In this document: positions 11,723 through 63,900 of the stretch, piece after piece | How the letters are laid out: every line of letters begins with the position of its first letter | Numbering within the stretch: position 1 is the first letter of the stretch | Source: Ahaetulla prasina | Lineage: Eukaryota > Chordata > Lepidosauria > Squamata > Colubridae | Assembly: GCF_028640845.1 (NCBI RefSeq) | Contig: NC_080546.1 | Span: 17,643,020-17,707,019 of the forward strand | Direction of reading: 5' to 3' | Length of the DNA stretch: 64,000 nt | The notes under the pieces: generated by a model | Seen by the model: the letters and a program-made list of their open reading frames with translations, nothing else | Database searches by the model: none | What the model was told of the DNA's origin: nothing | Made by a program: the position numbers and the translations under genes

Positions 11723-12651
11723 TTAATGTTATAAAGTAATAACGAAAGCACAAGTAACATCATTAATAATGGTGAAAGTAGTATGTTATTATTTTGCAAA
11801 TGGTACAAATGGACACAAACCTGATTGTGCATTAACAAACCATCCTCATTTCTGCCGTCTTTGCTACAAAAAAGAAGAAGGGAATATTAAGGAACATGTC
11901 ATAAAGGAAGCAACAAACCATTTTTTTAATAATCATAAAACCACATTTTTTTAAAAAAGCGGATGAAAATAAAAGTTAAAATTTCAAATCACACTTATAA
12001 TTCCTTCTTTGAGACTTGCATAGAAAAGCCAAGAGATCAATCTACTATTAACAGGTGTGAAATACAGTATGAATACATAAAATAAAGCGTTCATTTTAAC
12101 GTTGAAAGATTATAATGTTAGAACATCTTTTCCTGAAAAATAGCAGCATTTTCAAAGTAGGACATATGCAGGCATAGGAAATCTAGTTAGCTCTCCACCC
12201 CTATGTAAAGAAACTAGTTTCAAAGTATAATTGGATTCTCTAGTATAAACTGACATTTAAATTTTTTTAATTTTAAGACAGAATAAATTCTAAGCAAGTC
12301 ATTCTGGTTGGATTCTCTAGTATAGACCTTAACTGACATTTAAAAATATTTAATTTTAAGACAGAGTAAATTCTAACCAAGTCACCTTTCTTCAGAAAAC
12401 ACCTCCATTTCATCTGGTCCTCTTCCATCTTCGTGTCTCAAGGAACCAAAAGTTTCCATTGCCTGTCAAACATTAAGACAATTGCTAAGAATGATCATTT
12501 TAAACATCTCTCAAAACCTCCAAACGTAATTTCAACTGTCAGTGCACCGGAAGGACACAGGTGTGTTCCATCCATATTGAGAAATGCTATTTATTATACA
12601 GACAGTGAAATAGAAAGGGACTACGAAAGATATAGTAGCAAGTGGTCTACT
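11723..12651. other. Intronic sequence with a short internal duplication
   Basis: AT-rich intron. 12229-12300 and 12308-12380 are a direct duplication of about 70 bp sharing TTGGATTCTCTAGTATA and TTTAATTTTAAGACAGA. No exon recognised. Confidence 0.55.
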
Positions 12652-16130: not shown

Positions 16131-16534
16131 TTCTAGAGTCTTCCAAATGAGGCAGAATACAAATATCCCAAAAATAAATACATAAATATGTTTCATTGTA
16201 GAGACTTCTCTTTTGCTCGGAAGGAATGGTTGATGATTTTCCTGATTTTTGACAGCCAATTCTGGATTACTGAGTAATACGATGGGCATTTAAACTTACT
16301 CCTGAATGCAGGAGTACTGCATTTCCACTGAATGCAGCTGTTACTTGCAAACTTCAGACTTGGGGGCCATTTTTAATGCTACACTCAAATGGCTTTCAGA
16401 ACCATTCAGCAAGAATAATCATCAAGACCACTTGAAATTCAGATGACGCCATGAGTTGGGCATCCATGGATAATACAGGGTCACCCAAGTCACAATGTGA
16501 CATTTGAAAGCTTGGCTTTCATAATTTTGCTTAC

Positions 16535-16733
16535 CAAAGAACTCTCTTGGTTGTCGTTAAACTCAGTTAGTTTGGTGCTGGATTTCTGACGCTTTGGTTT
16601 ACTTCTTTCGCCAATGTAACCAGAATTGTTCTCATGGCATTTTTCCTGTATATTAAATGCTTCCTGAGCATTTAATATACACTCCTCAATGCTACTGAAT
16701 CCAGAAGGAATATTCTCTTTATTGATGACCTCC
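16535..16733 (-). CDS. FAM13A: FAM13A internal exon (INKEN...ERSKPKRQKSSTKL)
   Basis: This 199-nt exon begins after a long pyrimidine tract and TATATAG (AG 16735-16734) and ends at TTTG|GTAAGC (donor 16534-16533). The first base completes an Arg codon, then 66 codons read EVINKENIPSGFSSIEECIL and on to NDNQESSL. Mammalian FAM13A has LINKENTPSGF and GERSKPKRQKSSTKL at matching places. The basic KPKRQK cluster is another possible nuclear localisation signal. It is the only exon here that changes phase (2 in, 0 out), so skipping it would shift the frame. The next exon should start in phase 0, and I could not find it in the remaining 16.5 kb. Confidence 0.94.
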
Positions 16734-18609: not shown

Positions 18610-18789
18610 CTATCTCTGGTTTTTCGGCCTTCATCTTGTTCTTTATGATGTCGCCTGCGCTGCCCAGTAGATACACCAGAAGATGTTAATGATGTTCCAG
18701 ATTCAGATTCTTCAGAACTTTGACCACTAGAGCCATGAACATCAAAAAGATGTTGTTCAACAGCTGTCCGGATAGTCTTTTCTAAGAAT
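18610..18789 (-). CDS. FAM13A: FAM13A internal exon (Ser-rich and basic linker)
   Basis: This 180-nt exon lies between GATAG (AG 18791-18790) and donor GTATGC at 18609. It encodes FLEKTIRTAVEQHLFDVHGS and continues through a Ser/Glu-rich run to GQRRRHHKEQDEGRKTRD plus AG. The first part is nearly the mammalian LERTIRSAVEQHLFDV helix. The end is a strongly basic, probably disordered stretch that could act as a nuclear localisation signal (inference). It is in phase 2 at both ends, so skipping it would keep frame. Confidence 0.94.
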
Positions 18790-22818: not shown

Positions 22819-22860
22819 TCTCCAGTAGCAGGGATGCTGTTGACTTGTGACACGTGAGCA
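22819..22860 (-). CDS. FAM13A: FAM13A internal exon (AHVSQVNSIPATG)
   Basis: A 42-nt exon lies between acceptor TATACAG (AG 22862-22861) and a consensus donor GTAAGT starting at 22818. It completes the Ser codon left by the previous exon and encodes AHVSQVNSIPATG plus GA, which becomes Glu with the first base of the next exon. Mammalian FAM13A has AHVPQVSNVSATGE at this place. Phase is 2 in and 2 out. It is too short to appear as a long open reading frame and was found by following the phase and the family sequence. Confidence 0.92.
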
Positions 22861-30082: not shown

Positions 30083-30124
30083 CTCAGATAGAATGGTGAT
30101 AAAGGCCTTTCATCCTCTTGGGAA
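30083..30124 (-). CDS. FAM13A: FAM13A internal exon (first exon shared by both isoforms)
   Basis: A 42-nt exon follows a T-rich tract ending TTTTTAG (AG 30126-30125). It reads T|TCC CAA GAG... and encodes SQEDERPLSPFYL plus AG, then donor GTATTT at 30082-30081. It enters and leaves in phase 2, so length is a multiple of three. SQEDERPLSPFYL is identical to the mammalian FAM13A segment as I remember it, which makes it the strongest single identity marker in the window. Both the exon at 63731 and the alternative first exon at 41425 feed into it in the same phase. The donor is weaker than its neighbours (GTATTT). Confidence 0.93.
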
Positions 30125-40499: not shown

Positions 40500-40690
40500 T
40501 GAATTTTCCTGACAGTGAGAACTATGGAAGGGCTTGCCTGCAGAAGCTGTGAATGCTCCATCACTGGAGGCTGTTGAGAAGAGATTTGGACAATAACTTG
40601 TCTGGAATGGCGTAGGGTCTCCTGCCTGAGCAGAGGGTTGGACTAGAAGACCTCCAAGGTCTCTTCCAACTCTGTTATTTTGTTAAATAC
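40500..40690 (+). mobile_element. CR1 LINE 3' end
   Basis: Contains the CR1 3' UTR hallmark CAGAGGGTTGGACTAGAAGA followed by CCAAGGTCTCTTCCAACTCT. No terminal 8-bp repeat run remains. Confidence 0.8.
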
Positions 40691-41017
40691 CATTTATATC
40701 TATTAATAGGAAAAGCCAATCGACTATATTTCTGCAAGTCCAGTAAAGAGGCAGGAAATAAGAAACAACCCATAACAACAGGAGAAGCAAAACATCTGTA
40801 ACAACAAGCCTCAATACAACACGACCTTGTCTAGGAGCCAATTCCATTTAGCATACAGTAATATAGGACACCGGTACACCATCAAATCAACACATATCAA
40901 AGCGACATCGAGAAAATGAACGCTTTTCCTAGAAAAACGGGACGTTCCATTTTACCGTTCGAACTCCCACCAAAGCTTTTTTTTTTTTTTTGGTCCGAAA
41001 AACTTATTTCAGAGCTG

Positions 41018-41100
41018 AAGCAGCTTCTCGCACGAGAAGCGAAACGTCTTCAAAGAAAAAACCAGAAAGTCCAGTTGCCTTAGCACCTTTGGGACTTTTT
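41018..41100 (+). repeat. GATGAGAAGC-family repeat fragment
   Basis: Has GAGAAGCGAAACGTCTTCAA and AGTCCAGTTGCC, as at 7.1 and 44.9 kb; here the hairpin CTTCTCGCACGAGAAG is perfect. Confidence 0.6.
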
Positions 41101-41205
41101 TTGTTTTGTTCCAAAAACAGAACGATTTCATTTTTTGCTAAAGATAAGAAAGTGTGTGGGGGTGGGTGGGTTTGATCGATAGCCGAGGCTTTACACAGTA
41201 TAGAG

Positions 41206-41311
41206 CAGGGGTCTCCAACCTTGGCCACTTAAAGCCTGGAGGACTTCAACTCCCAGAATTCTGGGAGCTGAAGTCCTCCAGGCTTAAAGTGGCCAAGGTT
41301 GGAGACCCCTG
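41206..41311. mobile_element. hAT palindrome MITE, near-perfect, next to the alternative exon
   Basis: 106 bp, CAGGGGTCTCCAACCTTGG to its complement, flanked by GTATAGAG (41198-41205, 41312-41319). Arms are nearly identical, so insertion is recent or gene conversion keeps them alike. It lies 112 bp into the first intron of the short FAM13A transcript. Confidence 0.9.
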
Positions 41312-41424
41312 GTATAGAGAAAATATTTTTGCAGGCAGCTTGGCGCGACAGCTTTGCACCCACACTCCCTTCAAAACAGACAACAAACCCAAGTTAAGGC
41401 TCTTTTTCCCCCCTCCTTCTTTAC

Positions 41425-41453
41425 CTTTGCAGAGAGACGATCTCCAAAGCCAT
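41425..41453 (-). CDS. FAM13A: FAM13A alternative first coding exon (short isoform start)
   Basis: On the minus strand ATG at 41453-41451 opens MALEIVSLQ followed by AG and the donor GTAAAG (GT at 41424-41423). The exon therefore leaves in phase 2, exactly as the long-isoform exon at 63731 does, and joins the exon at 30124 to give MALEIVSLQ-SSQEDERPL. The short human isoform starts with a closely similar nonapeptide before SSQEDERPL (from memory), so position, length, phase and sequence all agree. The start context is strong (G at -3, G at +4). The exon sits in a CpG-rich block that would be its promoter and 5' UTR. The same frame stays open upstream to an ATG at 41894, but that stretch has no recognisable homology and runs through a poly-Phe homopolymer, so I take 41453 as the start. 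Confidence 0.87.
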
Positions 41454-42430
41454 GCCGGAAAAAAGTGTCCCGCGAGAGCGAGCGAGCGAGCTGGTGCTTG
41501 GGAGCTTTTCGATTCCTTCCGCCTCTTGCAGCGGGACCGGGCTTCTCCTCCACCACACCCCTCTCGCACGATTGTCTTTGCCCCGCAGGCACCAGCCGCC
41601 TGTCAAGCCTCTTGACTTCCCTTGCAAAAAAAAAAAAAACCTCCCTTGGCTTCGCCTTCCTGCTCCAGTGATCGGCTTGCCAGTTTCCGGCGCGCACGGC
41701 TCGACTGGGCAGCTGTCTGTCTGTCTTGCACGCGAGCGCGGAGAAGGCGCCAGGTCCCAGCCGGCAGGAGGGCTTTCCCCCTTTTCTGGCCGCGGAGATG
41801 CCGCGCTCTCCCCCCGCCTCCCTCCCTCTTTGAACTTTTGTTCCCGAGGAACCACCAGCAGCTCCAGCCTCCTGCAGCCAATTAAGTGCCGCAACCGGGA
41901 ACAGCCGGTTCAGCCGATCCGCTCCCCGAGTAACTTGAAACTTTTTCCTTCGCCCGCTTGTCCATGCGACCAATCATGGATTGCGGGGCGCCGAAGCTGG
42001 AGAGGCAGGCGGGACGGATCCTCTCCGCCTTCCTTCAGCCTTCAACGCGCTTTTGGAGGCGTGGGGACTGCAGACGCCAGCCTCCCCCGGGCGCAGCCGA
42101 GGGTTGATTTGCAACCAGGCGCCCGCTGCGGTTTCAGTCGGTGCTTCCTTTAACCCGCGTCGCTTTAACTTGGAGAACTCAAGGCGGCGTGTGTGTGTGT
42201 GTCACACACGTGCGTGGATGGTTGCCAGGTCCATCCCTGGGCTATGAAACAGCCTGGCCCAAGGGAGGCCGATTAAGGGTGATCTAAGTCCGGCTCTCTC
42301 GTCCCCCACCGAATCATTAAGCACTCTGCCCCGCTTTCCGAAATCGTGGGTAGCTCGCTTCCTTGTGGGCAGTGGATTATGGTTACTGTAGTTCAACAAC
42401 CCCCACTCTCAGGAGGGCGCAGCCATGCCG
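41425..42430 (-). promoter_or_regulatory. FAM13A: CpG-rich internal promoter / 5' UTR of short FAM13A isoform
   Basis: The block is strongly GC- and CpG-rich against AT-rich intron on both sides, and it abuts the alternative first exon. It contains CCAAT at 41878-41882 and 41970-41974 and GC-box-like CCCCGCC runs near 41810. No TATA box is placed convincingly, which suits a CpG-island promoter with dispersed starts. The transcription start cannot be fixed from sequence. A second GC-rich patch follows at 43110-43630, beyond two SINEs. CpG promoters are often bidirectional, so an antisense transcript to the right is possible but not shown. Confidence 0.75.
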
Positions 42431-42522
42431 GGGGAAGAGGGCATTGGTCTGCACAGCAATGAGAAGCTGGGGCGCGAGGAGCATAGATTCATAAGGTTGG
42501 AAAGGCACCTTTGAGGGACATA

Positions 42523-42855
42523 AGGGACGTGGTAGCTCAATGGCTAAGACGCTGAGCTCGTAGTAGTTCAGCAGTTCGAATCCCTAATAATGGGGTGAGC
42601 TCCCGTTATTTGTCCCAGCGTCTACCCACCTAGCAGTTCAAAAGCACGTTAAAAAATGCAAGTAGAAAAATAGGGACCACCTTTGGTGGGAAGGTAACAG
42701 AGTTCCGTGCGCCTTTGGCGTTGAGTCATGCCGGCCACATGACCACGGAGACGAATTCGGACAGCACTGGCTCTTCGGCTTTGAAACGGAGATGAGCACC
42801 GCTCCCTAGAGTCGGGAATGACTAGCACAGATGTGCGAGGGGAACCTTTACCAAC
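42523..42855 (+). mobile_element. Sauria-type tRNA SINE
   Basis: The only plus-oriented copy. Head GGTAGCTCAATGGCTAAGAC and B box AGTTCGAATCC, BovB-like end CCTAGAGTCGGGAATGAC, tail GGGGAACCTTTACC. It sits upstream of the CpG promoter block relative to FAM13A transcription. Confidence 0.88.
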
Positions 42856-42982
42856 CCCCTGCTTCGAGCAGGAGACTCTTAAAACAAGGGTCTGGTTCTA
42901 CCGTTTGTTCTGTGCAAGGGGCTTTCCTCGGTATAGGGAAAAATCTTTGCTGCCCAAAAGAGCTTTTTCTGCCATGGGAAGG

Positions 42983-43112
42983 ACTAGGTGGCTCAGTCGA
43001 TCAGAAAGATCGGCGGTTCGAATCCCTAGTACGGGTCTCCTGCGTGAGCAGGGGGTTGGACTAGATAACCCCCAAGGTCCCTTCCAACTCCGTTACTGTT
43101 ACACTGTGGTTC
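42983..43112 (+). mobile_element. Chimeric SINE: tRNA-like head joined to CR1 3' tail
   Basis: The head has TAGGTGGCTCAGTCGATC and GCGGTTCGAATCCCTAGT like a tRNA/Sauria head. It passes directly into GCAGGGGGTTGGACTAGATA and CCAAGGTCCCTTCCAACTCC, the CR1 3' end, with no SINE body between. Confidence 0.7.
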
Positions 43113-44039
43113 ACACGGGGGGAGGGGGGAGAAAGACAGCCCGCTCAGCTGCGTTTGGATTGAGGGTCGCCTCGGCGCATAAGGGGCTGCGGGCAGCTGG
43201 TCTGCCTGCTGCAGGGCGACGGGAGGGGTGGGGTGGGGAAGAAATCTCCTGCCCTCCTCCTGGAAATGATTGATTCACGCTAAAGAGGGCAGAAAATGGA
43301 ACACCCCCCCCCTTCAATCCTGCCGCCTTGGGTCCAAAGCTTTTAGTTATAACCGCTTTTGGCTGGAGGAAAGCATCTCACACGCTTCCCATTCAAACAT
43401 GAGGCTTTCCGCGCCGCGGGACTTTGCCACAAGGCAATTGACATCACGTCAAGCACGTTGCTCTCATTCACTGGCGGGGAGGAGGGAGGGAGGGAGAGAG
43501 GCCGGAGGAAACAGACGTGACCAGGACACGCATCACACATACAGCCTGTCCCTTCGCCTTCTGCCAAGCCGCGCCTTTGCGCTTTAGGTAGCAAGCGGTG
43601 CTTTGCGACGCTCCTGCTTAAAAAAAGCCACATTTTAAACTTTCCAACTTTCCTTCCCTAGCAACCAAAACTAGCTGGATAAAGACAATTTAAAAAAAAA
43701 TCTAATTCATGATACAATCCGGCTTCGCGCCCATATTAAAATAAACCATTCAATTACCTGTTGGTTTTACGCATTTTTGATTACTATTTCCCCTTTTATA
43801 TCCTTTGTCGTTAATTTTCTATGGAAATATTGTGATTTTTTCTGGGTTTTGCAGAGGACTGCAAACAGAATAAGTAAACCCAAGATAAAAAAAATCTAAT
43901 TATAGATATTTTATAAACCTAAATAAAATTTGAGCATTCAAAATTGTAGATTTTTTGAACACGCGCATATACTCCAAAACAAGCACTGTTAACAGGCCAA
44001 ATAAATTTTATTTTATGTATTAATTTTCATGCCACTTTT
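43113..44039. other. Second GC-rich patch (to about 43630) then AT-rich intron
   Basis: 43110-43630 is GC-rich with several CpGs and a GGGAGGGAGGGA run, possibly an extension of the promoter region. 43640-44040 is AT-rich with nothing identified. Confidence 0.45.
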
Positions 44040-44225
44040 AATACTTCGTAAGTAACTCAAGGCTTAACGCTCTACTCTTTCCTCCTATTTTCCTCACAAC
44101 AACAATCTTGTGAGGTGGGTTGGGCTGAGAGAGTGACTGGCCCAAAGTCACCCAGTCTGCTGAAGGGGAACTAAAATTCAGTCTCCTAGTTTCTAGCCAG
44201 CACCTTAACTACTACAGCAAAGTCA
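44040..44225 (-). mobile_element. tRNA-derived SINE, minus copy of the 38.2-kb family
   Basis: AACAACAATCTTGTGAGGTG, then GAGTGACTGGCCCAAAGTCA and TAGCCAGCACCTTAACTACT are the complement of the family at 38154. Confidence 0.72.
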
Positions 44226-44382
44226 CTCTATTGCCCTTTGTGAAATGATTTCACTATCTGAGCATTGGGCAAGACATATCTAGTGCAGGTTTAGATTCTG
44301 TGTTTGCCAACAGGAGAAAAACTTCAACCTTGTACAGGTAGTCCTTGGTTGAAGCACCTGGAGGTTCAAAGACGCTCTTAAA

Positions 44383-44811
44383 CAGGGCTGCCAAACTCAA
44401 GGCTCACGGGCCAGATGTGGCCCACGCAGCCACCCTGGAAACAGCGAAGGACTGGCCCGCGGTGCGTCTGCCAATGAAACAGAGCTAGGGAGAGCTGTGT
44501 ACGGTCCTCTCAGGCTTTGTTTTCGGCTGTGGCGGCCTCCTGCAGCCCTCTGCCAACGTGTGTGGTCCCACCCTCGGCTCCATTTTTGCTGGCAGAGGGC
44601 TCAGGAAGCCTTCATGACTGAAAATGGAGCTTGGGAACCCATTTTCATTGGCAGAGTGCTCAGGCCGCCAGGGGCCGCCAACACGAGTGATGTCAAGCTG
44701 GCCCCACCCACCCTAGCCACACCCACTCTGCCCCCGTCCCTGCTAACCACAACCCTGATGCTAACCACAACCCTGATGCAGCCCTCAATAAAATCGAGTT
44801 TGACACCCCTG
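44383..44811. mobile_element. hAT-type MITE (CAGGGCTGCCAAACTC)
   Basis: Right end CGAGTTTGACACCCCTG intact; flanks CTCTTAAA / CTCTAAAA nearly match. Preceded at 44335-44375 by a stub of the Tigger-like MITE terminus. Confidence 0.78.
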
Positions 44812-60393: not shown

Positions 60394-61045
60394 CAGATTA
60401 ACAGAGTTGGAAGGGACCTTGTAGGTCATCTAGTCCAACCCCCTCCCGCCCCCGTCCAAGCAGGAGACCCTACTTATGATTTATATTGATATATTGATCA
60501 TCAATTGTGTTGTAAATGTTGTACCTTGATGAACGTATCTTTTCTTTTATGTACACTGAGAGCATATGCACCAAGACAAATTCCTTGTGTGTCCAATCAC
60601 ACTTGGCCAATAAAAAATTCTATTCTATTCTATTCTATTCTATTCTATTCTATTCTATTCTATTCTATTCTATTCTATTCTATTCTATTCTATTCTAAAC
60701 CATTTCTGACAAATGGCAGTCCAATCTCTTCTTGAAAGCCTCCAGTGATGAAGTTCCCACAACCTCCGAAGGCAAGCTGTTCAATGGGTTGATTGTTCTG
60801 ACTGTCAGAAAATTTCTCCTTATTTCTAGGTTGAATCTCTCCTTAATCAATTTTAACCCATTATTCCTTGTCTGACCTTTGGGTGCCTTGGAAAATAGCT
60901 TGACCTCTTCCTCTCTGTGGCAGCCCCTCAAATATTGGAAGACTGCTATCATGTCTTCCCTGGTCCTTCTCTTCACTAGACTAGCCCTGCCCAGTTCCTG
61001 TAACCGTTCATTGTATGTTTTAGTCTCCAGTCCTCTAATCATCTA
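60394..61045 (-). mobile_element. CR1 LINE C-terminal end, split by a CR1-L3
   Basis: The minus-strand frame 61042-60695 reads LGRASLVKRRTREDMIAVFQ, then RRNFLTVRTINPLNSLP and LEAFKKRLDCHL, the CR1 ORF2 C terminus. Its 3' UTR (complement of GGGGTTGGACTAGATGACCT) is at 60400-60470. A CR1-L3 3' end with an (ATTCT)n tail (60476-60698, plus strand) is inserted between them. Confidence 0.88.
60476..60698 (+). mobile_element. CR1-L3 (Snake1-type) 3' end with (ATTCT)n
   Basis: Almost identical over its last ~130 bp to the 4777-5335 copy, including AATTCCTTGTGTGTCCAATC. About 16 ATTCT units at 60618-60697. Confidence 0.92.
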
Positions 61046-63730: not shown

Positions 63731-63900
63731 CTGGTGAAGAACGCACCACTGCTTAGGAAGGAGATTTCATCCGCTAACTCCATCTCCTTGGGACGCAAAC
63801 TATCCGTTAAATGGATGCTAACCCGTGGAATTCCATCTGACAGTCTCGGCTGCAGCATTAAAGGCGTCAGAGATCGTCTTTCTGGTTTGGACTTTACGAT
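63731..63900 (-). CDS. FAM13A: FAM13A internal exon, last exon unique to the long (RhoGAP) isoform
   Basis: This 170-nt exon enters in phase 0 after a pyrimidine-rich tract and TCTAG at 63905-63901, and leaves in phase 2 at AG|GTTAGT (donor 63730-63729). It encodes 56 residues starting IVKSKPERRSLTPL, then MLQPRLSDGIPRVS, and ending GAFFT plus AG. The LQPxLSDGIP block matches the FAM13A segment that follows the RhoGAP domain; the second half (SLRPKEMELADEIS and after) is diverged from mammals. The KPERRS stretch is a basic, serine-containing motif that could be phosphorylated, which is inference only. The two leftover bases AG join T of the exon at 30124 to give Ser-Ser-Gln-Glu. An ATG-initiated reading frame here (63858) is an internal Met, not a start. 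Confidence 0.9.

Follow-up and report, generated by a model that had tools for sequence, protein, structure and literature searches.

A putative internal promoter and start exon for the short FAM13A isoform in the snake Ahaetulla prasina

Introduction

FAM13A, a gene linked to lung disease and fat distribution, has two differing products, of which mice possess the short one only; its paralogue FAM13C is RhoGAP-free. A CpG-rich stretch inside a long FAM13A intron of the snake Ahaetulla prasina raised the question of whether this snake possesses its own internal start for the short product, and how far back among the amniotes such a start can be followed.

The background given here was taken from the available passages of each cited source: (i) in human, the long and short forms have distinct promoters (PMC11376246), the proximal start giving the short form and the distal start lying 235 kb upstream (PMC8836216); (ii) the short forms from the proximal start lack RhoGAP, the frog has the long form, and the long form acts on RhoA (PMC11376246, PMC13336431, PMC8836216, PMC13245938, and PMC6947481, cited as a set); (iii) the short form binds PP2A (PMC13336431); (iv) mouse and rat have the short form only (PMC11376246); and (v) for the cow, a gene model of 18 exons encodes 697 aa, and its core promoter was mapped by luciferase to -241/+54; from the length of 697 aa, this was taken here as the short-form promoter (PMC6947481). 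A lizard genome paper contains the word FAM13A (PMC9942394). Within the literature searched, which included few subscription papers and was available in part, no account was found of the short start exon among reptiles or birds, or of its age.

Materials and methods

The window, i.e., the whole stretch of DNA analysed, comprised 64,000 nt of A. prasina contig NC_080546.1 (positions 17,643,020 to 17,707,019). The protein search used the 189-residue N-terminus predicted from the window plus a length filler, with scoring limited to those 189 residues; it gave 398 matches, of which the best 120 were listed. The query length was chosen to favour short forms and set the length filter at 288-917 aa, and rows were clustered at 90% identity. 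Clades were set by hand from the printed names, and any row not otherwise listed was counted as mammal. Splice donors were scored with a weight matrix of base frequencies. Nine reference start peptides were taken from relatives and fixed before the scan of ATGs, and the Markov copies used as controls were first-order.

Results

Anatomy of the start exon and of the exons that it could join

FAM13A lay on the minus strand of the window, and its intron between 63731 and 30124 (33,606 nt) housed both the CpG block and the start exon, the latter being located between the last upstream long-form exon and the first shared exon on the same strand (Table 1). The ATG (41453-41451) had the context GGC-ATG-G, with G at -3 and +4, and opened nine codons, MALEIVSLQ, followed by AG and then by the donor GTAAAG, so that 41425 was the last exon base. 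The acceptor TTTTTAG preceded 30124, and AG plus T restored the frame to give MALEIVSLQ-SSQEDERPLSPFYL; the coding exon M-A-C-E-(I/V)-x-x-L-Q with a phase-2 junction to SSQEDERP, which marks a short-isoform first exon, was found as MALEIVSLQ plus AG|T, with the exception of Cys3. A first-pass annotation had listed the nonapeptide, the GTAAAG donor, the strong ATG context, and the phase needed to join SSQEDERPL, and all of these were read directly on the minus strand. It had also proposed a check for transcription starts between 41454 and 42430; as a small correction, 41454 is the base just before the ATG.

Table 1. Coordinates of FAM13A features in the window
Feature	Position	Strand	Details
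Last upstream long (RhoGAP)-form exon, IVKSKPERR...SSGAFF(T)	63731..63900	(-)	phase-2 end, donor GTTAGT
CpG-rich block, presumed TATA-less promoter and 5' leader	41454..42430	(-)	ATTGG boxes at 41974 and 41882
Alternative first exon, coding part	41425..41453	(-)	MALEIVSLQ plus two bases (AG); aligns with MACEI[MIL]xLQ / MACEVMPLQ starts
Splice donor GTAAAG	41419..41424	(-)	read from sequence
Shared exon SSQEDERPLSPFYL	30083..30124	(-)	42 nt, phase 2 to phase 2, in-frame cassette
Shared exon (S)AHVSQVNSIPATG	22819..22860	(-)	42 nt
Shared exon (E)FLEKTIRTAVEQHLFDVH...	18610..18789	(-)	sequence
Shared exon EVINKENIPSGF...	16535..16733	(-)	4-residue insertion relative to P0206, P0210, and P0240
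Shared exon AMETFGSLRHEDGRGPDEMEVFSEE	12386..12462	(-)	sequence

The start-exon donor, which had A at +5, was the third best among the seven FAM13A donors scored by weight matrix, with 40 of 3,429 minus-strand GTs (itself counted) scoring equal or higher. The long-form exon was 89% identical to P0246, the long isoform of the garter snake, over 55 residues. It ended in phase 2 (FFT|SSQ), the same phase as the start exon, so that either start can be spliced to one common set of downstream exons, and these shared exons had GT-AG borders.

The 14-residue exon SSQEDERPLSPFYL was skipped in crocodile P0179 and contig P0236 from the short start and in garter snake P0246 from the long form, and its donor GTATTT was the weakest of the seven scored (229 of 3,429 equal or higher). 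Since this exon is an in-frame cassette, 41425-30124 need not be the sole junction, with 22860 as the other possible partner. A start exon that is used but mainly spliced to 22860, leaving 41425-30124 as a minor junction, would be compatible with a working promoter and would fit the in-frame 42-nt length, the three skipping records, and the weak cassette donor; it is nevertheless an unlikely, if still plausible, arrangement, because only P0179 among the 88 start-exon rows (best 120 of 398 matches) showed, with the pattern applied, the start followed directly by SAHV.

Several further observations were made along the gene: (i) the exon at 16535-16733 read AQEAFNIQEKC, with four extra residues, versus AQEV----EKC in the elapid and viper records compared; (ii) at 16496-16534, the Pseudonaja model P0206 ran past the donor after SSL into the intron (VSKIMKAKLSNVT), and the intron of the window read identically, a hint of either a retained intron or an artefact of annotation; (iii) a minus-strand open frame of 115 codons was located at 60695-61042 and is presumably similar to the terminal part of an open frame from a non-LTR element; and (iv) a near-perfect palindrome (41201-41316; 58-nt arms, 93% complementary, no loop) lay near the beginning of the intron, some 110 nt past the start exon, and is perhaps a foldback mobile element.

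The CpG-rich block

The segment 41425-42430 was the densest CpG block of the 64-kb window, at 77 per kb. It contained 77 CpGs, compared with a median of 15 for 1-kb stretches, which bore out the CpG-rich block claimed for the 33.6-kb intron; the best 1-kb stretch starting beyond 42600 or ending before 40800 had 54 and adjoined it at 42611. CpG islands are recognized by GC >0.55, CpG observed/expected >0.6, and a length of >=500 bp, and this segment had corresponding values of 0.607, 0.84, and 1,006 nt. CpGs are prone to loss where they are methylated in the germline, so their retention here suggests a live promoter.

No TATA box, GC box, or CRE half-site was detected in the block by motif scan; CACG-type words, two CCGGAA/TTCCGG words, and one TCTCGCGGGA were present and were too short to weigh. 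The 511-nt ATG-free leader was rejected as evidence, because its lack of ATGs was not significant for its composition [P(0)=0.13]. Structured RNA or tRNA was also rejected: ARAGORN gave no tRNA in 41000-44500, and no Rfam match at gathering scores was obtained in the whole window.

Repeat copies were found on either side of the block (40615-40677 / 43033-43095) and near its upstream end (42565-42589 / 43007-43031). A tRNA-like piece, GTTCGAATCCC, bounded the upstream side of the block near 42600 and was repeated at 43007-43031, with no tRNA called there by ARAGORN. Because these repeats and the tRNA-like piece bound the block upstream, CpGs beyond about 42500 may belong to repeats.

The start exon in other amniotes

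An orthologous exon (MACEI/VxxLQ) started 88 of the best 120 of 398 matches: 12/16 lizard, 1/1 tuatara, 2/2 crocodile, 3/5 turtle, 32/47 bird, 36/42 mammal, and 2/5 remaining rows, together with 0/2 snake rows (P0206 and P0210, neither with a MALEIVSLQ start). The alignment across amniotes that had been proposed as a check was thus obtained, reptiles and birds included. Across the 88 rows of these best 120, the start peptides matched MALEIVSLQ at 4 to 7 of nine positions. Among the matches listed, the closest peptide was MACEIMSLQ of Rhineura and Sphenodon (7/9), and the commonest was MACEIMPLQ (43 rows, 6/9), which was unchanged in one lizard, three turtle, one bird, and 36 mammal rows of the best 120 of 398. 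Cys occupied position 3 in all 88 rows of these best 120, by a pattern that itself requires Cys, with the N-termini also read by eye, while the window had Leu; in the by-eye reading of the listed N-termini, no different peptide was noticed that had Met nine residues ahead of the junction. As for the 32 rows without the pattern (best 120 of 398), P0109, P0209, and P0225 began with MPLQ, the tail of the exon, and the others were long-form, partial, or differently started models.

In a second search, restricted to about 157-499 aa, 22 proteins matched, of which P0215 and P0236 carried the full start and P0237 began MPLR at that place. P0215 (396 aa, longest contig 1,508 nt) and P0236 (311 aa, 1,113 nt) both began with the start exon and looked spliced, because their contigs were too short for introns of the size seen in the window; their probable origin is spliced RNA or a processed copy, and they are not known to be snake RNA, the chicken record P0147 coming from the same contig source.

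All named rows among the matches listed were amniote, with no named amphibian or fish in this length-filtered best 120 of 398 or among the 22 matches of the second search. Because the start exon is shared by lizards, tuatara, crocodile, turtles, birds, and mammals, it dates at least to the amniote ancestor. The claim that the two-product design predates the mammal-reptile split was therefore largely supported through the shared ancestry of the annotated starts, but not as something new, the start being already annotated in reptiles. A wider reading holds that the promoter is pre-amniote and belonged to an early-vertebrate long/short pair, with FAM13C perhaps derived from the short promoter, and that snakes alone rewrote a near-frozen peptide; this is doubtful. 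Short FAM13A transcripts of the bichir from long reads (10-11 exons versus a 25-exon reference) were set aside for dating, because they were incomplete matches and the start peptide was absent from the available passages of the source (PMC12581780).

Snake records and the long form

The residues predicted from the window were 90% identical to Naja P0210 over 110 residues, 86% to Pseudonaja P0206 over 133, 87% to Protobothrops P0240 over 95, and 89% to Thamnophis P0246 over 36, versus 76-79% over 188-189 residues to five lizards and tuatara. The window was most like snakes, a rough placement in which the compared stretches differ.

The garter snake record P0246 carried RhoGAP (Pfam PF00620, E 1.3e-43); its stretch up to SSGAFFT matched 63733-63897 and then continued to SAHVSQ without the 42-nt exon. 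A RhoGAP-bearing long form was thereby found in the same lineage, the RhoGAP exons of the gene in the window lying upstream, outside it. Pfam detected no RhoGAP in the short form of the lizard Elgaria (P0121); neither P0121 nor the 189-residue peptide of the window gave any Pfam family at E 0.001, and the protein database lists PF26116 for P0121. Because P0246 keeps the RhoGAP form and the Elgaria short form lacks the domain, both products are possible in snakes.

The start exon was also missing from all three snake matches (P0210, P0240, and P0246) among the 22 of the second search. This bears on the chief rival to a working promoter, namely that the start exon is orthologous but its promoter has been weakened or silenced in snakes that rely on the long form. 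Absence of the exon from all four snake records would agree with such a relic, as would a nonapeptide that has changed faster in the window than in the listed amniotes, with loss of the shared Cys3. However, the models of P0210 and P0240 open only past the exon, P0206 starts differently, and P0246 represents the long form; because the four records are fragmentary or started elsewhere, absence from them says little. The window moreover retains an intact frame, ATG context, donor, phase, and CpG content, and a relic is improbable.

Chance controls

Among 2,229 ATGs on both strands of the window, one scored 7/9 against the amniote start peptides, none 6/9, and five 5/9, and eleven units consisted of an ATG plus nine codons followed by AGGT, of which the other ten scored <=3. 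When the AGGT donor was required, 100 Markov copies of the intron gave a best score of 5/9, in a single copy; when it was not, a score of 6/9 was seen in 6 of the 100 and 7/9 in none. For 41391-42430, 300 Markov copies with the donor not required gave one 6/9 and one 5/9. A chance match of the nonapeptide was ruled out by the ATG scan and these controls. That the CpG block is instead an enhancer, an orphan CpG island, or partly made of repeat-derived CpGs, beside a fortuitous nonapeptide, has a negligible likelihood: repeats do flank the block and a CpG-rich kilobase begins at 42611, but the one ATG above 5/9 also has the right donor and phase, and the same start peptide is annotated at the same junction in relatives.

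Discussion

The start exon of the window is orthologous to those of other amniotes, and it retains the anatomy, phase, and CpG content described above. Judged from these features, 41425-42430 very probably is a working internal promoter of the short FAM13A isoform in this snake; counted against a working promoter were the lack of a snake record with MALEIVSLQ, Leu in place of Cys3, and A at +5 of the donor. We infer that the start exon is transcribed and spliced in the snake and that the short protein acts as it does in mammals.

Under a working promoter, RNA polymerase II would start without a TATA box inside the CpG-rich block, and the first exon would provide a short 5' leader, the strong-context ATG, and nine residues before a phase-2 splice onto the shared exons, either at 30124 or, with the cassette skipped, at 22860. 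The product would keep the coiled-coil part of FAM13A without the RhoGAP domain encoded upstream of the window, and transcripts from the distal promoter would still yield the RhoGAP form. The short protein may then be a GAP-free partner as in mammals, e.g., in Wnt signalling through PP2A.

Comparison with known systems placed the snake start as follows: (i) the human/cow short isoform (isoform b, 697 aa), as far as described in the available passages of its sources, likewise has an internal start downstream of the RhoGAP exons and lacks RhoGAP, and gibbon P0102 likewise has a nine-residue start ending in LQ and joined to the SSQEDERP residues, while the snake peptide differs from MACEIMPLQ at three of nine positions, its promoter is putative, and the distal promoter lies outside the window; (ii) the annotated short isoforms of lizards, tuatara, crocodile, turtles, and birds share the start peptide and junction with the snake, from which they differ in having Cys3 instead of Leu and, in most listed birds, three additional residues (MASMACEVMPLQ); and (iii) mouse and rat Fam13a use the short form and lack the long one, while a long-form exon is retained in the window and a RhoGAP form in the garter snake. 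The proposal that the snake block mirrors the mammalian short isoform therefore stands for the exon, which aligns with annotated short-isoform starts apart from the change of Cys3 to Leu, and presumptively for activity in the snake.

The arrangement is real and old, and it is already annotated in lizards, turtles, crocodile, tuatara, and birds, to which the snake is an added member; this is a modest comparative point and ordinary biology. From the annotated records, the short product looks amniote-wide, and the two-product design is not a mammalian feature. Because mice have the short form only, reptiles or birds are candidate two-isoform models, and if snakes use the exon, their altered peptide would show which residues of the short form can change.
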